Made by a program: the position numbers and the translations under genes. Under the pieces are notes generated by a model. That model was not told where the DNA came from. It worked only from the letters and a program-made list of their open reading frames with translations, and ran no database searches. DNA of 64,000 bases from Natronomonas salina (GTDB lineage: Archaea > Halobacteriota > Halobacteria > Halobacteriales > Haloarculaceae), in contig NZ_CP058335.1 of the NCBI RefSeq assembly GCF_013391105.1, forward strand, positions 1,798,001 to 1,862,000. The letters run 5' to 3'. Positions 12,125-41,280 of the stretch are shown piece after piece. How positions within the stretch are numbered: position 1 is the stretch's first letter; each line of letters opens with the position of its first letter.

Positions 12125-13660
12125 ATGCAACCGACGCTGGCAGACACCCTCGAGTTGACCGCAGACCGGTACCCCGAGAAGGAGGCGCTCGTCTACCCCC
12201 GGAAGGACCAGTCGTACACCTACGCCGAGTTCGACGAGCGGGCGACCCGGCTGGCGAACGCCCTGGCCGACCTCGGCGTCGGGAAGGGCGATCGCGTCTC
12301 GACGATGCTGTACAACGGCAGCGAGATCGTCCTGACGGCGTACGCCTGCGGGAAGCTCGGCGCCGTCTTCAACCCGCTGAACTACCGCCTTCCGGCGGGC
12401 GAGGTGGAGTTCATCTGCAACGACGCCGGCTCGAGCGTCCTCCTCTTCGAGGCCGACACCCGCGAGGCCGTCGAGGGCGCCCGCGAGGACCTCGAGACCG
12501 TCGAGGAGTTCGTCTACGTGGACGAGGACGGTCCCGAGTACGCCCGTGACTTCTACGCGATGGTCGAGGCGGCCCCGGCGGAACCACCGTCGACCGTCGT
12601 TAACGCCGACGACGTCTACGCGTTCATCTACACCTCGGGAACCACGGGCCGTCCGAAGGGGGTCGTCCACGAGCACCGCGACATGGTCGAGCACTCGCTC
12701 ATCTGCGTCGCCGAGGGCGGCATCCGCAAGGACGACGTCGGGCTCTCGGCGCTGCCGCTGTACCACTGCGCGGAGCTACACGCGAACCTCTTCCCGCGCG
12801 TCCACGTCGGCGCGACGAACGTCGTCCACCACGAGTTCGACCCGGCGGCGGTGCTGCAGGCGGTCGACGAGCACGACGTGACGCTGTTCTTCGCCGCACC
12901 GACCGCCTGGAACGGCCTGGTGCAGGCGGCCGACGCCGTCGACGCCGACACCACCTCGCTCCGGCTCGGCTTCTACGGCGCCTCCCCGATGCCGAAGGAC
13001 GTCCTCGACGCCTGCATGGACCGCTTCTGCGAAGATTACCTCCAGGCCTACGGCATGACAGAGATCGGCCCCTGCGGGACGTTCCAGCACCCCGACGAGC
13101 AGCTCTCGAAGCAGGGCTCGGCGGGGCTGCCCGCGCTGAACCACGACCTCCGGATCGTCGAACCCGGCGCCGCGCCGGACGCCACCGTCGAGCGCGGCGA
13201 GATCGGCGAGATCCTCCTGGCCGGCCCCTGCACCATGCGGGAGTACTGGAACCGGCCGGAGGCGACCGCCGAGTCGCTGCGCGAGTACGGCGGCGTCGAG
13301 TGGTACTACTCCGGCGACCTCGGCTACCGCGACGAGGACGGCTACCTCTTCGTCGTCGACCGGAAGGACGACATGATCATCTCCGGCGGCGAGAACGTCT
13401 ACCCGACGGAGGTCGAGGACGTCCTCTTCTCGCACCCCGACGTCGTCGAGGCCGCCGTGGTCGGCCAGCCCGACGAGGAGTGGGGCGAACTCGTCGTCGC
13501 CTACGTCGTCGGCGACGTCGACGGCGAGACGCTGGACGCCCACGTCCGCGACAGCGACGACCTCGCCGACTTCAAGCGGCCCCGCGAGTACCACCTCGTC
13601 GAGGAGCTGCCGAAGAACCCCAGCGGGAAGGTCCAGAAGTTCAAGCTCCGCGAGGAGTGA
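12125..13660 (+). CDS. Acyl-CoA synthetase (AMP-forming)
   Basis: The protein has 511 residues and belongs to the ANL superfamily. Visible motifs are the P-loop [11 protein letters not shown] (about 166-176), YGMTEIG, the hinge and A8 region [20 protein letters not shown] followed by [12 protein letters not shown], and the catalytic Lys in NPSGKVQK near the end. It activates a carboxylic acid to acyl-adenylate and then to acyl-CoA. Chain length cannot be read. The full length is normal for fatty-acyl or medium-chain ligases. A role in fatty-acid or aromatic-acid catabolism is likely. Confidence 0.92.
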
Positions 13661-18307: not shown

Positions 18308-18664
18308 ATGGAACGGCGGGCGGCGGCGCTGGTCGCGGCCGGCGGCTTCGCGGGCGCGCTGAGTCGCCACGCCGTCGCCGTCGCGCTCCCCGGGGGCTTC
18401 CCCTGGGGGACGCTGGCGGCGAACGTCGCCGGCGCGTTCGTCCTCGGGCTGGTGGTGTACGGGACCGCCGAGCATGGCCGCATCTCGGCCGCCGCTCGGC
18501 GGTTCGTCGCGACGGGCTTCCTCTCGTCGTTCACGACCTACAGCACGTTCGCCGCCGAGACGAGCGCGCTCGACCCGCGGCTGGCGGCCCTCAACGTCGC
18601 CGCCAACTACGGCCTGGGGCTGCTGGCGGTGCTGCTCGCCCGTGGGGTGATCCGGTGGCGCTGA
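18308..18664 (+). CDS. crcB: CrcB/Fluc fluoride channel subunit 1
   Basis: The protein has 118 residues and four membrane helices. Family hallmarks are GGFAGALSRHAV, the pore Asn in TLAANVAGAFVLG, and TGFLSSFTTYSTFAAE. It exports fluoride passively. Haloarchaea commonly carry two crcB genes whose products may pair. This copy overlaps the next by one base (TGATG), which implies coupled translation and a heterodimer. No fluoride riboswitch was recognised in the 79-bp upstream gap. Confidence 0.9.
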   Translation: MERRAAALVAAGGFAGALSRHAVAVALPGGFPWGTLAANVAGAFVLGLVVYGTAEHGRISAAARRFVATGFLSSFTTYSTFAAETSALDPRLAALNVAANYGLGLLAVLLARGVIRWR

Positions 18665-21444: not shown

Positions 21445-21819
21445 GTACGTCTCGTTGTCCCGAGGGAGACGGCCGGGACTGATAGCCGTTTGGACCGTTC
21501 TCTACGATGAAACTCACCGCGGTCGGGCCGACGACCACGGCGAGGAGGAGTGTCGTTCGAGAGCCATACTCCGGTGCTGACGCCGAACCCGTTTCGTTCG
21601 GTCATGACCTTCGAGCATTGCCGCCACGGCGGGTTCACTGTTCGGACTATAGAATTAGGTAATCGGTAACAAGGCGCGAGCGTAGACGGATAAGCGGGAC
21701 TGGTGGCACCCAGTGCGTGAGAACCCGATAGAACGAGAGACGAGACTACTGCGGCCGCCCTGCGAATGCAGGCGCCGCCGTTATTCTGTCGACAGCGCTA
21801 TTCAGCACGGTGACAACCC
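21445..21819. other. Gene-free stretch between response regulator and HMA-like gene
   Basis: The 375 bp contain upstream regions of two divergent genes. An A/T-rich spot at about 21648-21672 (actatagaattaggtaatcgg) could be a promoter. A short hairpin CCTGC-GAAT-GCAGG lies at about 21762-21775. No convincing small gene was found. Confidence 0.4.
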
Positions 21820-22029
21820 ATGGCCGAGAGTAGGGAGACGTTCACGATCCGAGGTATCGACGACGACCACGAGAAGGAGGACATCAAGGACACGCTCAAC
21901 CACCTCGACGGCGTCATGGAGACCGACGTCGACGACTCCGGGGAGGCGTCGGTCCGCTACGACGAGGACATCATCGGCGGCGAGGAGGTCGAACACCGGG
22001 TCCAGAAGATGGGCTACGACACGGAGTAG
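21820..22029 (+). CDS. HMA-fold protein lacking the CxxC metal site
   Basis: The protein has 69 residues. It follows the heavy-metal-associated domain pattern closely (FTIRGID, LNHLDGVMETDVD, ASVRYDEDIIGGEEVEHRVQKMGYD), but the GMxCxxC loop is replaced by GIDDDHEKEDI. There is no cysteine in the protein. Copper(I) binding of the usual kind is therefore unlikely. It may bind other ions through the Asp/His loop or act in protein contacts. Confidence 0.75.
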   Translation: MAESRETFTIRGIDDDHEKEDIKDTLNHLDGVMETDVDDSGEASVRYDEDIIGGEEVEHRVQKMGYDTE

Positions 22030-22260
22030 CTCGAGTGGGAGGCCGTCTCGCCAAACGTGGGTGACCCGCCGAAAGGCGATGTTGTTACCAGGTATAATAG
22101 CCTGCTAGGCGGAGTCCTCCTGGGGAGGAATCCATAGACGGCACACTCGTTACCACTCGTCAGTCCGATATCGTCGCCGACCGGGTTATGTCTGACAGTT
22201 GTCTCCGTAGTTACACCACAGGTGCCGATAACAAATTTTTACTAGTGGTTCGCGAGAAAC

Positions 22261-23568
22261 ATGGTTCCCGCACCGACCCCGGGGGGATCGGCGATTCCCG
22301 CAACCGGAACCGCGAGTAGCACCGCAGCCATCCGGTCGCTCGGCCGCGAGGGCGTCCGCACCCTCGCCTTCTCCGAACTGGAGTCTCCGCCGGGCTTCGC
22401 CTCGCAGTACTGCGACGAGACGACCGAGGTCCCCGACCCCACCGAGGACCTGACCGGGTACGAGAACGCCCTCCTCGAACTCGCCCGCCGCCCCGACGTC
22501 GACACCGTCCTGCCCTTCCGCGAACCCGACGTCTACGTCCTGGCCCGCAACAGGGGCGCCCTCGCCGCCCACGTCGGGACGCCCTGGCCGGACCTCGAGA
22601 CGCTCCGTCGGGTCCAGGACCGCAAACTGCTCTTCGAGGCCGCCGACCGCGCCGACGTCCCGGCGCCGGTCACGCGGACCCTCGACGAGTGGCCCGTCCG
22701 GGACGGCGACGTCGTCGTCAAGCCCCGATACACCGTCCACGCCGCCGAGTACGCCGACCGCTTCCCCGTCAGCCACACCCAGTGGAGCACCACCAGGTAC
22801 GTCTCGCCGGAGGACCGCCTCGACCACGAGGCGCTCACGGAGGCGATGGGCCACGTCCCGCTCGTCCAGGAGTTCGTCCCGTCGACCGACGAGTACGGGT
22901 TCTTCGCGCTGTTCGACCGCGGCGAGGCGGTCGCCACCTTCCAGCACCGCCAGCGCCGCGGCTGGAAGTACTGTGGCGGTCCGAGCGCCTACCGCGAGTC
23001 GGTCGACATCCCGGAACTCGAGGCCGCCGGGCTGCGGCTCCTCGAAGAACTGGACTGGCACGGCGTCGCCATGGTCGAGTTCCTCCGCGACCCCGAGACC
23101 GGCGAGTTCGAGCTGATGGAGGTCAACCCCCGGTTCTGGTTGTCGCTGCCCTTCACGATCCAGGCCGGCGTCGACTTCCCGGCTCTCTACTGGCGGCAGG
23201 CGACCGGGCGGCCGGTCGAGTCGGCCCCCGAGTACGACGTCGGCGTCGCCGGCCACCTGCTCCGCGGCGAGGCCCTCCACCTGCACAGCGTCCTCGCCGA
23301 CGACTACCCGCTGGTCGACCGACCGTCGTTCGCGAGGACCGCCCTCTCGGTGGCGGGGTCGCTGCTCCGCCACCCCCGCTTCGACTACCTCAGCGCTCGC
23401 GACCCGGCGCCGTTCGTCAGGGACCTCGTCGAGACCTACCGCATCTACGCCGACGACTCGGAGCCGGATACCGCCGAAGTTCCGTCGAGGGCGCCCGGGG
23501 CGTCCGAGGGACCGACGGCGAAGGAGCCGAGCGAGTTCGCGACGGTCGGCGCGGAGTCCGACGACTGA
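22261..23568 (+). CDS. ATP-grasp carboxylate-amine ligase-like enzyme
   Basis: The protein has 435 residues. An N-terminal domain (1-110) precedes the ATP-grasp fold. Markers are RRVQDRKLLFEAADRADVPA, VVVKPRYT, LVQEFVPSTDEYGFFALFD, LDWHGVAMVEFLRD and the metal-binding ELMEVNPRFW. This is the layout of carbamoyl-phosphate-synthase-like ATP-grasp enzymes often found in haloarchaeal surface or lipid-linked pathways. The Pro/Ser/Glu-rich tail after about 400 is probably disordered. The substrate is unknown. A TTTTTACT element lies at 22236-22243. Confidence 0.78.
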   Translation: MVPAPTPGGSAIPATGTASSTAAIRSLGREGVRTLAFSELESPPGFASQYCDETTEVPDPTEDLTGYENALLELARRPDVDTVLPFREPDVYVLARNRGALAAHVGTPWPDLETLRRVQDRKLLFEAADRADVPAPVTRTLDEWPVRDGDVVVKPRYTVHAAEYADRFPVSHTQWSTTRYVSPEDRLDHEALTEAMGHVPLVQEFVPSTDEYGFFALFDRGEAVATFQHRQRRGWKYCGGPSAYRESVDIPELEAAGLRLLEELDWHGVAMVEFLRDPETGEFELMEVNPRFWLSLPFTIQAGVDFPALYWRQATGRPVESAPEYDVGVAGHLLRGEALHLHSVLADDYPLVDRPSFARTALSVAGSLLRHPRFDYLSARDPAPFVRDLVETYRIYADDSEPDTAEVPSRAPGASEGPTAKEPSEFATVGAESDD

Positions 23569-24120
23569 GGGGACGAGTCTCGCGTGGCACTCCGCAGAGA
23601 CTTCACGGTCGGGTCGGTCCCCCGACCGGCCACGATCTGTATAGCGCGGCCGCTGGTGCGGAGCAGTTGTGATGCAGAACGACGCACCGGTGAGGGTGCG
23701 TCACCACCTTCCGGTGGCCCATCCCGAGAACTGACGATCTACCCATGGATGACAGTACGGGATGGTGAGCGGGACCAGGGACTACAGGTACGTAAGTAAG
23801 AGCCACGTACCCTGTTACTAGTCCAATAACTGGACGACCGCACGAACTGGCCACGGGGCCTCGTCGACAGTCAGCGACCAGGCGACTGACCGCCCAGACC
23901 GACGGAACGCGGCTCGCTAGTGGTCTTCTAGGGTGGCCGGCGGGCCGTCTCCGAGGGATTAAGCACCGCGGAGCCGTCGCGTACGTGTAGACGCGTCGAT
24001 ACGTCTCGGTCGGCGGGTCGGCGGACCGGCCGTTCGGACGTCGACCCGGAGAGAACCACTGGACCGCGGACGCACTGCCACACCACTACGCCGACCGCAG
24101 GCGGATCTCACCCACACCAG
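23569..24120. other. 552-bp gene-free stretch
   Basis: The first half (to about 23835) is rich in inverted repeats and is described as a candidate RNA. The second half (23836-24120) has scattered short repeats only and must hold the promoter of the gene at 24121. Open frames here (for example 23584-23799) look like chance frames. Confidence 0.5.
23590..23824 (+). ncRNA. Candidate structured RNA with at least six stems
   Basis: Within a 552-bp gene-free region the sequence forms a series of exact pairings. CTCCGCA 23590-23596 pairs with 23657-23663 and encloses an 8-bp hairpin 23606-23628. An 8-bp hairpin spans 23681-23702. CCACC/GGTGG forms 23704-23717. CCATCCCG 23719-23726 pairs with 23758-23765 and has an inner ACTG/CAGT. 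GGACTA 23779-23784 pairs with 23819-23824 and encloses CAGGTACGT/ACGTACC(C)TG. Strand is assigned only by position before the plus-strand gene. I did not find the conserved boxes of RNase P or SRP RNA. Confidence 0.45.
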
Positions 24121-24516
24121 ATGAACACCCAACGAAGGTGGTCACTGTTCGTCGACGTCGCCGCGATCGTCTGGATCGTCCTGTTCGCGGTCGACGTGGC
24201 CGCCAGGTTCGACGTCGTCGCCCTCGCTTCGTCGACCACGACCGTCGTCCGCGGGGCCCTCCAGGCGCTGCTGGCGGTCTTCCTGCTGGACCTGGCGCTC
24301 CTCTACCGCTGGTCCGACCAACGGCCGCGGGCGTTCGTGCGGTCGAACTGGCTCCTGATCCTCACCGTCGTGCCGTGGTTCCGGCCGCTGCGGCTGGTAC
24401 GGCTCGGCCGGAGCGTGCGGGCGCTCAAGGTACTGGCCGGGTCGCGCCGCGCCGGCTCGTTCCTCAACAAGGCCAGGCGGATGGCTAGACGCTACTGGCG
24501 CCGACTTCGCGAGTGA
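24121..24516 (+). CDS. Stand-alone voltage-sensor-like (S4) membrane protein
   Basis: The protein has 131 residues with three or four membrane segments: about 8-28, 42-62 and 74-104. The last one carries Arg88, Arg91, Arg94, Arg97, Arg100 and Lys103, one positive charge every third residue, as in S4 helices of voltage-gated cation channels (PLRLVRLGRSVRALK). It is preceded by RSNWLLILTVVPW, like the S3 region. The pore domain is absent. The C-terminus is very basic. It may be a channel relative without pore or a charged membrane protein; function is unknown. It is convergent with the DUF389 gene and overlaps it by 32 bp. Confidence 0.6.
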   Translation: MNTQRRWSLFVDVAAIVWIVLFAVDVAARFDVVALASSTTTVVRGALQALLAVFLLDLALLYRWSDQRPRAFVRSNWLLILTVVPWFRPLRLVRLGRSVRALKVLAGSRRAGSFLNKARRMARRYWRRLRE

Positions 24517-25879
24517 CCCGCTGGCCGAACGCGCCGAGCCGGTCGAACAGCCGGGCGACCAGACTCGAGGACCGCGTCTCGCTCGGGTCGGGCTCGGCGC
24601 GCTCGACGTCCTGGAACTGGACGTTCACCGTCACGGGGCGACCGGTCGCCTCGCTGATCCGCGTCTGGAGCGTCTCGTCGAGGTCCTCGTAGGCGGCGTC
24701 GGTCGACCGGGTCACCGTCACCGTCACCGAGATGTCGCTCGAGAGGACGTTCATGTGGTTGTAGTCGGTCTGGACGGTGCCCAGGTCCAGCGAGCTGTAC
24801 GCCGGGTCGTCCATGGTGGCCTGGACCTCCTGGTTGACGTCCTGCTCGAAGGCGACGTGCTGGTACGTTCCCGCGGCCGTCAGCGCGACCACGACGGCGA
24901 ACAGGACGACGAGCAGCGCGTACCCGCCCGTCCGGGGCGAGACGACGAAGTCCTCGCGCAGCGACCGGATGACCGACGACCGGTAGCCCAGCGAGACGAG
25001 CGCGACGTACGCCGAGAGGTTGATGAACACGATGTTCATCAGAAGCAGGACGATCGCCCCGAGGACCATCAGGGGCTCGCCCCAGACGACGCCGATGCCC
25101 GCCGCCGACGCCGCGGGAACGATCGCCGCCGCGACCGCGACCCCGGCGATGGAGACGGGGAGGTCCGTCGCCAGCGCCAGCGCGCCGGCGAGGCCGGCGG
25201 CGATCGCGATCACCACCGTCAGGAGGTTCGGCGTGAGGAAGACGCTCACCTGCTCGACGCGGGCCACGACCAGCGACCCCGGGACGAACCCGGCCTGTCG
25301 GAGGAGGAGGCTCATCAGTATCGCGCCGACGAAGGCGACGAGCAGCCCGACGACCTGCGCCCGCGCGCTCTCGATGACCATCCCCCGGTCGCCGATGACC
25401 GTCCCGACGCTCGCCGACAGCGTCGAGCCCGCGAACGGCGCGATCACCATCGCGCCGACGATGACGATCGCGGAGTCCAGCAGGAGGCCGCCGACCGCGA
25501 CGATGGCGCTCAGCGCCGCGAAGGCGACGTAGGTCGCGAACTCGGGTTTGAGGTCCTCCGCCCGCTCCCGGATCTCCGGGTGGGAGGCGCCACGGTCGCC
25601 CTTCGGTCCCTCGACGTAGCGGTCGGTCAGCTCCTCGACGTTGGGGATGTTGGCCCGTTCGACGTCCGTCACGACGGTGTAGGTGTCCTCGTCGAGGCCG
25701 GCGTCGTACAGTTGCTCGAGGACCGTCTCCACCGCACCGCCGGGGACTGGGATGTTCGCGACCGATCCGTCCCGGGAACCGACCTCGTCGACGAAGAGGT
25801 ACTCGACGCCCATCTCGTCGAGGGCCGACTCGATGGCTACCCGGTCGTCACTGGGGACGAAAATCTCTATGAGCCGCAC
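24485..25879 (-). CDS. DUF389 (TIGR00341-like) membrane protein
   Basis: The protein has 464 residues. The start is placed at GTG 25879 (VRLIEIFVPSDDR) because the family begins with this RLIxVxVP strand, and the 56 upstream codons read through a promoter-like region (TACCTAAG near 25910). Residues 1-110 form a soluble regulatory domain. DUF389 membrane helices lie at about 120-340: SAIVAVGGLLLDSAIVIVGAMVIAPF, GDRGMVIESARAQVVGLLVAF and related blocks. Two C-terminal hydrophobic and soluble stretches follow. The family role is unknown, though transport is suspected. Confidence 0.82.
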   Translation of the reverse strand: MRLIEIFVPSDDRVAIESALDEMGVEYLFVDEVGSRDGSVANIPVPGGAVETVLEQLYDAGLDEDTYTVVTDVERANIPNVEELTDRYVEGPKGDRGASHPEIRERAEDLKPEFATYVAFAALSAIVAVGGLLLDSAIVIVGAMVIAPFAGSTLSASVGTVIGDRGMVIESARAQVVGLLVAFVGAILMSLLLRQAGFVPGSLVVARVEQVSVFLTPNLLTVVIAIAAGLAGALALATDLPVSIAGVAVAAAIVPAASAAGIGVVWGEPLMVLGAIVLLLMNIVFINLSAYVALVSLGYRSSVIRSLREDFVVSPRTGGYALLVVLFAVVVALTAAGTYQHVAFEQDVNQEVQATMDDPAYSSLDLGTVQTDYNHMNVLSSDISVTVTVTRSTDAAYEDLDETLQTRISEATGRPVTVNVQFQDVERAEPDPSETRSSSLVARLFDRLGAFGQRVTREVGASSV

Positions 25880-26104
25880 TGGAAAGGTGGTCGCGGAGGA
25901 CCGACTTAGGTATCCAGACCCTACAGCCGACAGACGTTCGAGCTGGAACGGTCCGGTAACCATCCCCGATAAATCGACAAACGACGAGAGGACGCGGTCA
26001 GGCGCCCCTGCCCCTCTCGACACGCGCGCTCCTGGCCTCTGCACCACGTCTCCGCGCCGTCTCGGCGGGAAAACTACTTTGTTCAGCGAGACCTAGCGGG
26101 AATT

Positions 26105-26536
26105 ATGGCATTCGGGACGTCGTCCCGTCCGCGTTTCTCGGTCGACCGCAGCGTCGCGGCCGTCGCAGCCGGCCTCTACCTCGTGCTCATGCTCTACCCG
26201 GTCACGCAGGCGGACTTCCCGGCCGTCGGGCTGCTCGCGGGCGTCCCGGTCGGCCTCGTCGTCGGCGTCCTGACGCCCCGGAGCGGCGACGAGCTGAACA
26301 ACGCGCTCGTGGGGTGTGCCGTCGGCGCGGCGCTGGTCGTGATCCTCGGTGCCGCCTACGGGTCGTTCGTCTCCTGGCAGGTCGGGTTCCCCCTCGACTC
26401 GGTGCTCGCCGGACAGTTCGCCGTCTACGGCTTCTTCTACGGCGGATTCCTCTTCCCGCTCCACATCGCGGTCGCGATCCCCGTCGCCGTGCTCGTCCGC
26501 TCGGCGCGGCGGCGAACCCGGGCGAGGTTCGCCTGA
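26105..26536 (+). CDS. DUF5518-like small membrane protein
   Basis: The protein has 143 residues and four hydrophobic helices at about 17-35, 38-56, 66-86 and 103-130. The Gly/Val-rich pattern (AVGLLAGVPVGLVVGVLTPRSGDE, LNNALVGCAVGAALVV) resembles haloarchaeal DUF5518-type proteins. A basic tail ends the protein. It is divergent from the DUF389 gene. No catalytic motif is seen. Confidence 0.65.
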   Translation: MAFGTSSRPRFSVDRSVAAVAAGLYLVLMLYPVTQADFPAVGLLAGVPVGLVVGVLTPRSGDELNNALVGCAVGAALVVILGAAYGSFVSWQVGFPLDSVLAGQFAVYGFFYGGFLFPLHIAVAIPVAVLVRSARRRTRARFA

Positions 26537-26698
26537 GGAGGCGAGTCCCGCGGCGCGGATAGACGTCGTCCTCGACGGACTTCCGCGCGGCGACGTAACT
26601 GGAAGAAGGCACCCCTTCGGCCCGACCACCTCGTAGAGAGTCGCAATTTCAGGCATCCTCGACTCCCTTCGTCGCCTCTTCAGTTCTTACGCGCCCCC

Positions 26699-26745
26699 TT
26701 ATATATAACGAGAACCGGTTACCCACCACCGGAAGCTATTTTTGG
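26699..26745 (+). promoter_or_regulatory. Promoter region of the tup operon
   Basis: A strong A/T run TTATATATAA begins at 26699. A second box GCTATTTTT (26737-26745) lies about 22-30 nt before the ATG at 26767, the right place for a leaderless start. Between them AACCGGTT and a repeated CCGG (ccggttacccaccaccgg) could be a regulator site. Which box is used is unknown. Confidence 0.4.
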
Positions 26746-26766
26746 CGGCACTCCAACGGTGTTCCC

Positions 26767-27690
26767 ATGCCGATACAACGCCGACAGTTCGTCTCCGCGC
26801 TGGGGGGCGGAGCACTCGCGGGGCTGGCGGGCTGTTCCCGGATCGGCGGCAGCAACGGCGAGCGACCCGGGGTTGCCGGCGAGACGCTCACGCTGACGAC
26901 GACGACGAGCACGTACGACACGGGCCTCCTGGACGAACTCAACGCCCCGTTCGAGGACATGTACGGGGTCACCGTCGACGCCGTCGCCCAGGGGACCGGC
27001 GCCGCCCTGGAGACGGCGCGGAACGGCGATTCCGACGTGGTGATGGTCCACGCCCGGTCGCTGGAAGACGAGTTCATGCGCGAGGGCTACGGCATCAACC
27101 GCCGCGACCTCATGTTCAACGACTTCGTCATCGTCGGTCCTGAGGACGACCCCGCCGGCATCGAGGGGATGGGCTCCGCCGTCGACGCCTTCGCCACTAT
27201 TGCCGGCGCCGAGGCGACGTTCGTCTCGCGCGGCGACAACTCCGGGACGCACACGAAGGAACTCGCCGTCTGGGACGAGGCCGGCGTCGAACCCGGCGGC
27301 GACTGGTACCGCGAGACCGGCCAGGGGATGGGAGAGGTGCTGAACATCGCGAACGAACAGGGCGGCTACACGCTCTCGGACCGGGGCACCTTCCTCTCCC
27401 AGCGCTCGGAGATCGACCTCACCATCCTCGTACAGGGACCGATCCGGGACGGCCCGGAGCTCCTCGCGAACCCCTACGGCATCCTGGCGGTGAACCCCGA
27501 GATCCACGACAACGTCAACTACGATCTGGCGATGGCCTACATCGGCTACGTCACGAGCCCCGACGCCCAGCAGACCATCGCGGAGTACGAGGCCGACGGC
27601 GAACAGCTGTTCTTCCCGCGGGCGCTCTCGGAGGAGCCGAACTTCCAGCAGTACGTTCCGGAAGGGTGGAGTGGGAACGCCACGGAGTGA
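26767..27690 (+). CDS. tupA: Tungstate-type ABC transporter substrate-binding lipoprotein
   Basis: The protein has 307 residues. The Tat motif RRQFVSA and lipobox LAGC anchor it outside the cell. The mature part starts with the TupA signature [15 protein letters not shown] and contains [42 protein letters not shown] and [10 protein letters not shown], all typical of tungstate-binding proteins. It captures tungstate (or molybdate) for TupB and TupC. Tungsten feeds aldehyde oxidoreductases in many archaea. It is the first gene of tupABC plus regulator. Confidence 0.9.
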
Positions 27691-36443: not shown

Positions 36444-36475
36444 AGTTCTACCGAGTACTCGGTTGACGTGAGTGT

Positions 36476-36571
36476 CCGCGCGAGCGAAGCGAGCGCGGTT
36501 CTCCGGACGCGACCGGAGGGAGCGTCCGGTAGCGTCCGACGACTACCGCGGGCCCGAACGGAGTGAGGGCC
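36476..36571. repeat. Three consecutive hairpins with a shared 11-nt loop
   Basis: H1 is CCGCGC-GAGCGAAGCGA-GCGCGG (36476-36498). H2 is CCGGACGC with loop GACCGGAGGGA (36503-36529). H3 is GGCCC with loop GAACGGAGTGA (36551-36571). Stems differ but every loop is 11 nt and fits GANCGRAGNGA. They lie between two convergent genes. Confidence 0.7.
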
Positions 36572-36606
36572 AGCGACTGGAGGAGGGCGCGCATATTTTC
36601 CCCAAG

Positions 36607-36642
36607 TTTTTGCCGGGCCGGCGAAGCCGGCCCGTGCAAAAA
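36607..36642. terminator. Bidirectional terminator-like hairpin
   Basis: CGGGCCGGC (36614-36622), loop GAA, GCCGGCCCG (36626-36634) is a perfect 9-bp stem. TTTTTGC before it and GCAAAAA after it extend the pairing with one bulged T. Each strand therefore ends in a U-run after the hairpin. The position between convergent genes supports termination in both directions. Confidence 0.55.
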
Positions 36643-36650
36643 GTGGAGGT

Positions 36651-39888: not shown

Positions 39889-41280
39889 TCAGTTCTGGAC
39901 GATCCGGACCAGCCGGTCGTCGCCCTCGGTCGGGAAGGAGTCCTCCTGCGGTTCGCTGCTCCGGCCGTCGCGGTTCGAGGTGACCGCGTACAGTTCGCCG
40001 TTCGGGCCCTGCTCGACGTGGCGGATGCGCCCCAGTTCGTCCTCGAAGAGCGCGTGGGCGACCGCGTCGTAGTCGGGGTGCATCCAGTCGGCGTCGTAGC
40101 GGGTGCCGCCGATGTCGGGTGCCTCGCCCTCGTAGACCGAGACGACGTTGAGCCGCTGGGAGACGAGGCCGCCGAGGACGAGCCGCCCCGAGAGTGCGGG
40201 GACGTCGTCGCCGGTGTAGAACGTCCCGCCCGGCGGCGCCCACGTCTCGCTCCCGGTGTTCACGAGCGGCGGCGTCACGTCGTCGTGGTCGGTGTAGGAG
40301 CCGTAGGCGTCGTCGCCCGGGCCGCCGCGGGCCTTCGGCCAGCCGTAGTTGTTCCCGCCCTCGACGACGTTCACCTCGTCGCGGGCGTTCTCGCCGTGTT
40401 CGGCGGCCAGCGCCGTCGCGTCGGGCAACCACGTGATGGCCTGGGAGTTCCGGTGGCCGACCGTGTGGATGCGGGGGTCCGGGAAGCCGGGGTTGTCCTC
40501 GGGTGGCGTGCCGTCGGGCTTCAGTCGGAGGATCTTCCCCGCGAGGCTGGCGGTGTCCTGGGCGAGTTCCCCGTCGCCCGAGTCGCCGGTCGTCACCCAG
40601 AGGTAGTTCCGGGGGCCGAACGCGAGGCGGGCGCCGTTGTGGATGATCCGGTGGCCGGGCACGTCGTCGATGACGACGGTCTCCTCGGCGTCGTTCCCGA
40701 GGTCGTAGAACACCAGCCGGTTGCGGTAGACGCCCTCCTCGTCCTCGCTCGGCGGCTGCGCCTCGTAGGTGTAGTAGGCGTACAGCACCGGCACGTCGGG
40801 GTAGTTGGGGTGCAGCGTGATGCCGAGCAGGCCGCCCTCGCTGCCGCCACCCCACCAGTCCTCGCCCTCGAACTCCGGGGCGACCGACGTGGCGTGGTCG
40901 ATGACGTCCCCGGGTTCGGTGACGGTCTCGATCTCGCCGGCCTCGTAGCGGCTGATGCGGCCGATGCGCTCGGAGAAGAACAGCGTCCCATCGTCGGCGA
41001 ACGACATGTCCCAGGGGATCTCGAGGTTCTCGACGACCGTCTCGGTCCCGAGTTCGGCCTCCGTCGGCGACGTCTCCGGCGGCGACCACTCGGGGTCGTA
41101 GTCGGCCCAGTTCTCGACGTCGTGGTCGATCGAGAGGTCGTACGGCGACTCCACGGGCTCGATGTCCTCCGGCGGGGTGGACGTCCCGGGGTCGTCGTCC
41201 GACGAGCAGCCGGCGAGGGACAGCGCCCCCGCCGCGCCGACCGTCGCGAGGAACCGGCGGCGAGTGCGTTCGCAGGTCAC
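39889..41280 (-). CDS. PQQ-type sugar (aldose/sorbosone) dehydrogenase
   Basis: The protein has 463 residues. A Tat motif RRRFLAT and lipobox LAGC (Cys25) export and anchor it. The six-bladed beta-propeller starts near 80: LEIPWDMSFADDGTLFFSER, GLLGITLHPNYP, RLAFGPRNYLWVTTGDSGD, IHTVGHRNSQAITW (catalytic His region), WPKARGG, and PNGELYAVTSNRDG at the end. It oxidises sugars at the cell surface with PQQ or a related cofactor. It is likely to feed electrons to the respiratory chain. Confidence 0.88.
   Translation of the reverse strand: MTCERTRRRFLATVGAAGALSLAGCSSDDDPGTSTPPEDIEPVESPYDLSIDHDVENWADYDPEWSPPETSPTEAELGTETVVENLEIPWDMSFADDGTLFFSERIGRISRYEAGEIETVTEPGDVIDHATSVAPEFEGEDWWGGGSEGGLLGITLHPNYPDVPVLYAYYTYEAQPPSEDEEGVYRNRLVFYDLGNDAEETVVIDDVPGHRIIHNGARLAFGPRNYLWVTTGDSGDGELAQDTASLAGKILRLKPDGTPPEDNPGFPDPRIHTVGHRNSQAITWLPDATALAAEHGENARDEVNVVEGGNNYGWPKARGGPGDDAYGSYTDHDDVTPPLVNTGSETWAPPGGTFYTGDDVPALSGRLVLGGLVSQRLNVVSVYEGEAPDIGGTRYDADWMHPDYDAVAHALFEDELGRIRHVEQGPNGELYAVTSNRDGRSSEPQEDSFPTEGDDRLVRIVQN

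Follow-up and report, generated by a model that had tools for sequence, protein, structure and literature searches.

An independent gene for a small non-coding RNA probably lies on the minus strand of the gap between an ATP-grasp gene and a small channel-like gene. Its transcript, about 95 nt long and running from about 23770 to about 23676, would form three consecutive hairpins, P1, P2 and P3 (Table 1). Judging from DNA sequence, we give this reading a probability of roughly 0.68. The whole 64,000-nt stretch analysed, here called the window, covers G000:C1:1798001-1862000 on an archaeal chromosome of 3.75 Mb, from a haloarchaeal family that also includes Haloarcula. The proposal is based on a structure above chance, a second copy with compensated stems, the pattern of flank conservation, wobble pairs on the minus strand, and the unrelated neighbours of the two copies. 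The RNA is probably of a kind already known, the haloarchaeal intergenic sRNAs, in a family apparently undescribed in Rfam.

Table 1. Features of the gap, the proposed RNA and its counterpart (window positions unless stated otherwise)
Feature	Position	Strand	Description
ATP-grasp gene	22261-23568	+	
Gap with flagged stretch	23569-24120		between ATP-grasp gene and small channel-like gene
Small channel-like gene	24121-24516	+	
Stem CTCCGCA / TGCGGAG	23590-23596 / 23657-23663		read from sequence
Hairpin GGTCGGTC/GACCGGCC	near 23611-23634		inside the 23590-23663 stem; no conservation seen
Stem GACGCACC / GGTGCGTC	23681-23688 / 23695-23702		read from sequence
Stem CCACC / GGTGG	23704-23708 / 23713-23717		read from sequence
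Stem CCATCCCG / CGGGATGG	23719-23726 / 23758-23765		read from sequence; ACTG/CAGT within
Stem	23776-23824		present in MFE fold
Proposed small RNA	23676-23770	-	adjacent hairpins P1-P2-P3; predicted 5' end near 23770, 3' end near 23676
Hairpin P1	23719-23765	-	outer stem CCAUCCCG/CGGGAUGG, inner stem CUG/CAG, apical loop GGGUAR
Near-invariant apical stretch	23740-23756	-	ACUGUCA-(U)CC[R]UGGGUA (DNA: ACTGTCA-CC[R]TGGGTA); alignments A6, A8; largely unpaired
Hairpin P2	23704-23717	-	CCACC-GGAA-GGUGG; 5 pairs, none varies
Hairpin P3	23681-23702	-	GACGCACC/GGUGCGUC here; GGCACACC/GGUGUGCC in L085
Conserved 5' flank	23767-23802	-	18/36 identical to L085, ungapped; possible promoter, ACTTA at 23793-23797
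L085	G011:C18:40513-40611 (also placed at 40514-40620)		counterpart in second species of same genus; intergenic

The first-pass annotation had listed at least six stems at 23590-23824 and judged their density far above that of neighbouring gaps. All six are present in the sequence or its fold. Compared with shuffled sequence, the flagged region has a fold z of -3.3 when read as plus strand and -3.7 as minus strand; the 235-nt windows that overlap at 23601-23681 give -3.2 to -3.6. Against 159 window tiles of 235 nt (mean -0.45, sd 1.19, 2nd percentile -3.3), this places the region in the lowest 2-3% or so. The judgement on density is borne out for the most part only: the lowest 100-nt fold z is -4.4 in the flagged gap, but gap 36444-36650 reaches -4.3 and gap 26537-26766 -3.8. 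The flagged gap is among the most structured of the window, and gap 36444-36650 is equally structured. This latter gap has a fold z of -4.7 and holds short imperfect palindromes such as GCGCGAGCGAAGCGAGCGCG, as well as a GC-rich hairpin, CCGGGCCGGCGAAGCCGGCCCG, between T and A runs. The lowest fold z of the 159 tiles were obtained at 13161-13395 and 18331-18565 (-4.6 and -4.2, respectively), both of which overlap called genes.

That the region lacks a credible protein frame was confirmed. The two frames running across the stems, 23584-23799 (plus) and 23603-23854 (minus), have third-position GC of 0.59 and 0.58, compared with about 0.8-0.98 in the window's genes, and the gap is non-coding, with no GC3-biased frame. 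The minus-strand frame was also considered as a small protein and rejected, its tblastn matches being low-complexity noise that included no believable relative.

A FAH/response-regulator pair, reaching to 21444, precedes the gap, and a tungstate-type transporter pair, starting at 26767, follows it. Each pair is conserved in the genus, where the two occupy separate places in the genomes; the block between them was not found in the relatives examined. On these comparisons, the gap sits inside a lineage-specific gene cluster, which is why blastn yielded no orthologous interval for it and returned just short stray matches, mostly within coding frames. The 30-nt stray matches to the 23590-23663 portion also fell mostly in coding frames. 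The lineage-specific block (21445-26766) comprises HMA-domain, ATP-grasp, channel-like and DUF389-like genes; its channel-like/DUF389 pair is also present in Haloarcula salina (L060, L066), and a second ATP-grasp homologue, 47% identical to that beside the gap, lies in the same genome at G000:C1:1189703-1190857.

Relatives were then sought with R1, a covariance model built on the window copy alone and spanning its three central hairpins (23676-23775); the structure given to R1 was that of the plus-strand fold. With strict filters, R1 gave no match in 146 genomes of the family. When the filters were relaxed and the search confined to the genus (20 genomes, about 55 Mb), one counterpart was obtained, L085 in G011, scoring 29.9 bits (E 0.0096 for the G011 genome), the next best match in the genus being 21.4 bits. 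In a noise run over 1.97 Mb, almost all from the relative G016, the best score was 24.6 bits; the run gave 13 matches at E<=10, L085 among them, about as many as the E-values predict.

The flagged stretch could instead be a GC-rich, lineage-specific spacer with inverted repeats, and L085 the best chance match in about 55 Mb. We consider this unlikely. In its favour, about 0.2 chance matches as good as L085 are expected by E-value over the genus search, so the match needs outside support; the sequence alignment of the window copy and L085 alone is not significant, either genome-wide or at the scale of the genus search; the HMA, ATP-grasp, channel-like and DUF389 cluster has no syntenic counterpart; and other gaps fold equally well. 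Comparison of the two loci supplies such outside support, in the identity of the 5' flank, the intergenic position of L085 and the near-invariant apical stretch, and these three speak against chance, as do three double compensatory changes in the stems.

The compensatory changes were counted on an alignment of the window copy with L085 that was remade with several trims; A6, which registers P3, was used, and A5, in which P3 is misaligned, was excluded. In A6, with two sequences, all 24 tested pairs (P1, the inner CUG/CAG of P1, P2 and P3) are kept, of which 3 are changed on both sides and 1 on one side. The outer stem of P1 carries one double change (A-U to G-C) and the one-sided change (U-A to U-G), and P3 carries two double changes. 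Many pairs, including all of P2, are invariant between the copies. Sliding the partners by 1-3 columns left 34-53% of cells paired, and a two-row shuffle control gave 56/500, which is weak with two sequences. RNAalifold on the same alignment (minus strand) added four pairs, including an A-U to G-C change in the inner part of P1. The helices of the two-sequence model R2 (window and L085) were first selected on the fold of the window copy and afterwards recognised in L085; the pair counts describe this single structure. Folded alone, L085 forms P1 and P3 in its MFE structure and does not form P2; the same P2 stem is present in its sequence, with a loop 10 nt longer. Compensatory changes were the test the first-pass annotation had set for itself, and on this alignment it appears to be answered positively, in one relative only.

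L085 also delimits the conserved unit. It gives no support to three of the six stems: the stem at 23776-23824 overlaps the conserved 5' flank, where no counterpart of it is seen, and the 23590-23663 stem and the GGTCGGTC/GACCGGCC hairpin lie in unconserved flank. Conservation ends at P3 and, on the P1 side, continues upstream for some 36 nt. A structured non-coding RNA, as first suggested, is still the best reading, with compensatory changes in one relative, but it would be a smaller unit (23676-23770 plus 5' flank to about 23802) and on the minus strand.

The 50% identity over the 36 bases of the 5' flank has p 0.0012 against random haloarchaeal DNA; about 10 nt of the 36 lay inside R1 and the rest outside the model. 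On the 3' side, beyond P3, no conservation was seen (p 0.27). Over the tested lengths of 10 to 60 nt, p for the 5' flank was 0.33, 0.023, 0.0012, 0.0012, 0.0022 and 0.0093, and that for the 3' flank 0.11-0.59. The conserved 5' flank may hold the promoter of the RNA; a promoter matrix derived from tRNA genes found no strong match.

The minus strand is preferred because every one-sided change is G-U on this strand and A-C on the other. The one-sided change in P1 would be A-U to A-C on the plus strand, and two further variable pairs from RNAalifold are likewise standard on the minus strand only, in a fold computed on the minus-strand alignment. This wobble pattern emerged although the structure of R1 came from the plus-strand fold. 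Very improbable, given these pairs, is a plus-strand RNA or part of a longer transcript containing the same conserved unit, for which it can be said that both strands fold well, that the conserved flank could be the 3' part of a plus-strand RNA, and that the tRNA-derived matrix gives no strong minus-strand promoter.

A minus-strand RNA would be antisense to the ATP-grasp gene and converge with its 3' end; no co-directional gene lies ahead of it within the window. This convergence, the multiple hairpins and a patchy distribution in variable loci would also suit hairpins that work at the DNA level or in cis and not as free RNA, such as inverted repeats bound by a protein, an element at the end of the convergent ATP-grasp transcript, or the remnant of a mobile element. 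We regard this as quite improbable: the G-U wobbles suit RNA of one strand, the neighbours in G011 differ, no T-run terminator was found, and neither a second copy within the host genome nor flanking repeats within the gap were detected.

Further searches left the number of known copies at two, the window copy and L085. R2 was applied to 392 genomes of the order (best 10 candidates per genome, prefiltered), and only G000 and G011 stood above noise. Weak R2 matches of 20-27 bits (G139, G046, G259 and others) were rejected, with helices missing or broken; R2 noise in G016 is 23.7-23.8 bits, and the weak matches elsewhere are within or little above it. No third copy was found in loci fetched by synteny, that is, in relatives beside the FAH-response regulator, tungstate transporter and S6e genes, nor in about 2.0 of the 3.4 Mb of G016. 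A tungstate-transporter tree places G014 and G007 closest to G011; both assemblies are incomplete. Plasmid and phage collections held nothing relevant to the hairpin region, and matches in viral contigs were matches to the pattern only, with no model support in those rescored (120 contigs left out). Within the prefiltered genome searches, the putative RNA family is rare or patchy.

The proposed RNA was compared with known structured archaeal RNAs, among them RNase P RNA and SRP RNA. Rfam gave no match at the gathering threshold for the window copy and none for L085. At a permissive threshold, the window region gave just two matches, both far below their cut-offs (one of them SNORD49, 10.9 bits against 37), and none to RF00373, the archaeal RNase P RNA, or to the SRP models. 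The first-pass annotation had found no conserved boxes of RNase P or SRP RNA; the RNase P RNA of this genome lies elsewhere, at G000:C1:2402712-2403092. The suggestion of a K-turn in the 23719-23765 stem fails, since a 3-nt bulge leading into tandem G-A/A-G pairs is absent from both copies, and that of a guide RNA likewise lacks support. Archaeal box C/D and H/ACA guide RNAs are, like the proposed RNA, small and structured. In box C/D sRNAs, the C/D and C'/D' boxes are spaced by about 12 nt and a K-turn is present; by inspection the proposed RNA has no K-turn and no usable box spacing, GUGAUGC and CUGA on the plus strand being 55 nt apart around stable hairpins. H/ACA RNAs have an internal pocket, a K-turn and an ANA box 3' of the stem, whereas here P1 adjoins P2 directly, the pocket is too small, and inspection found no ANA box shared by the two copies.

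A closer likeness is to the trans-encoded, intergenic sRNAs known from haloarchaea, such as sRNA132 of Haloferax volcanii and the itsRNAs of halite communities, which are also intergenic, poorly conserved and without an Rfam family. The itsRNAs are mostly 50-200 nt (PMC7002113), and a length of about 95 nt is within this usual size. In the work consulted on haloarchaeal sRNAs, detection of transcripts is the main basis, and conservation has usually been sought by sequence (PMC7002113). The proposed RNA, likened to them by description and known here from DNA alone, differs in that its relative was found only by a structure-based model, with pairs kept by compensatory changes. If the proposal is true, this is an RNA missed by sequence search and caught by structure-based search, with a defined conserved loop open to direct mutation and testing.

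How such an RNA might act can be sketched. The minus-strand RNA would be transcribed from its own gene, from a promoter located in the conserved 5' flank. P1 would display the conserved, largely unpaired segment ACUGUCA..CC[R]UGGGUAR at its apex, and P3 may serve as a 3'-end hairpin. Our best guess, and the most ordinary reading, is a trans-acting small RNA whose exposed GGGUA loop would engage an mRNA or a protein; we prefer this to a leader function for an adjacent gene. Doubtful in comparison is an undescribed RNA family, at unrelated loci in different species, in which the apical module of P1 binds a protein or ligand and does not serve as an antisense seed.

A cis-leader or riboswitch would have the same gene downstream, on its own strand, in all copies. 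The window copy is antisense to the ATP-grasp gene, and L085, on the equivalent of the minus strand, lies upstream of a gene like that of ribosomal protein S6e in G011; such unlike neighbours argue against a cis-leader. The S6e-like gene in G011 appears to have its own promoter. The sequence TTTCAATACCCTTTTGCCGACGC upstream of the S6e-like gene (L095 6042-6401, L333 5725-6084) is near-identical between G011 and G016, and resembles a promoter common to the two.
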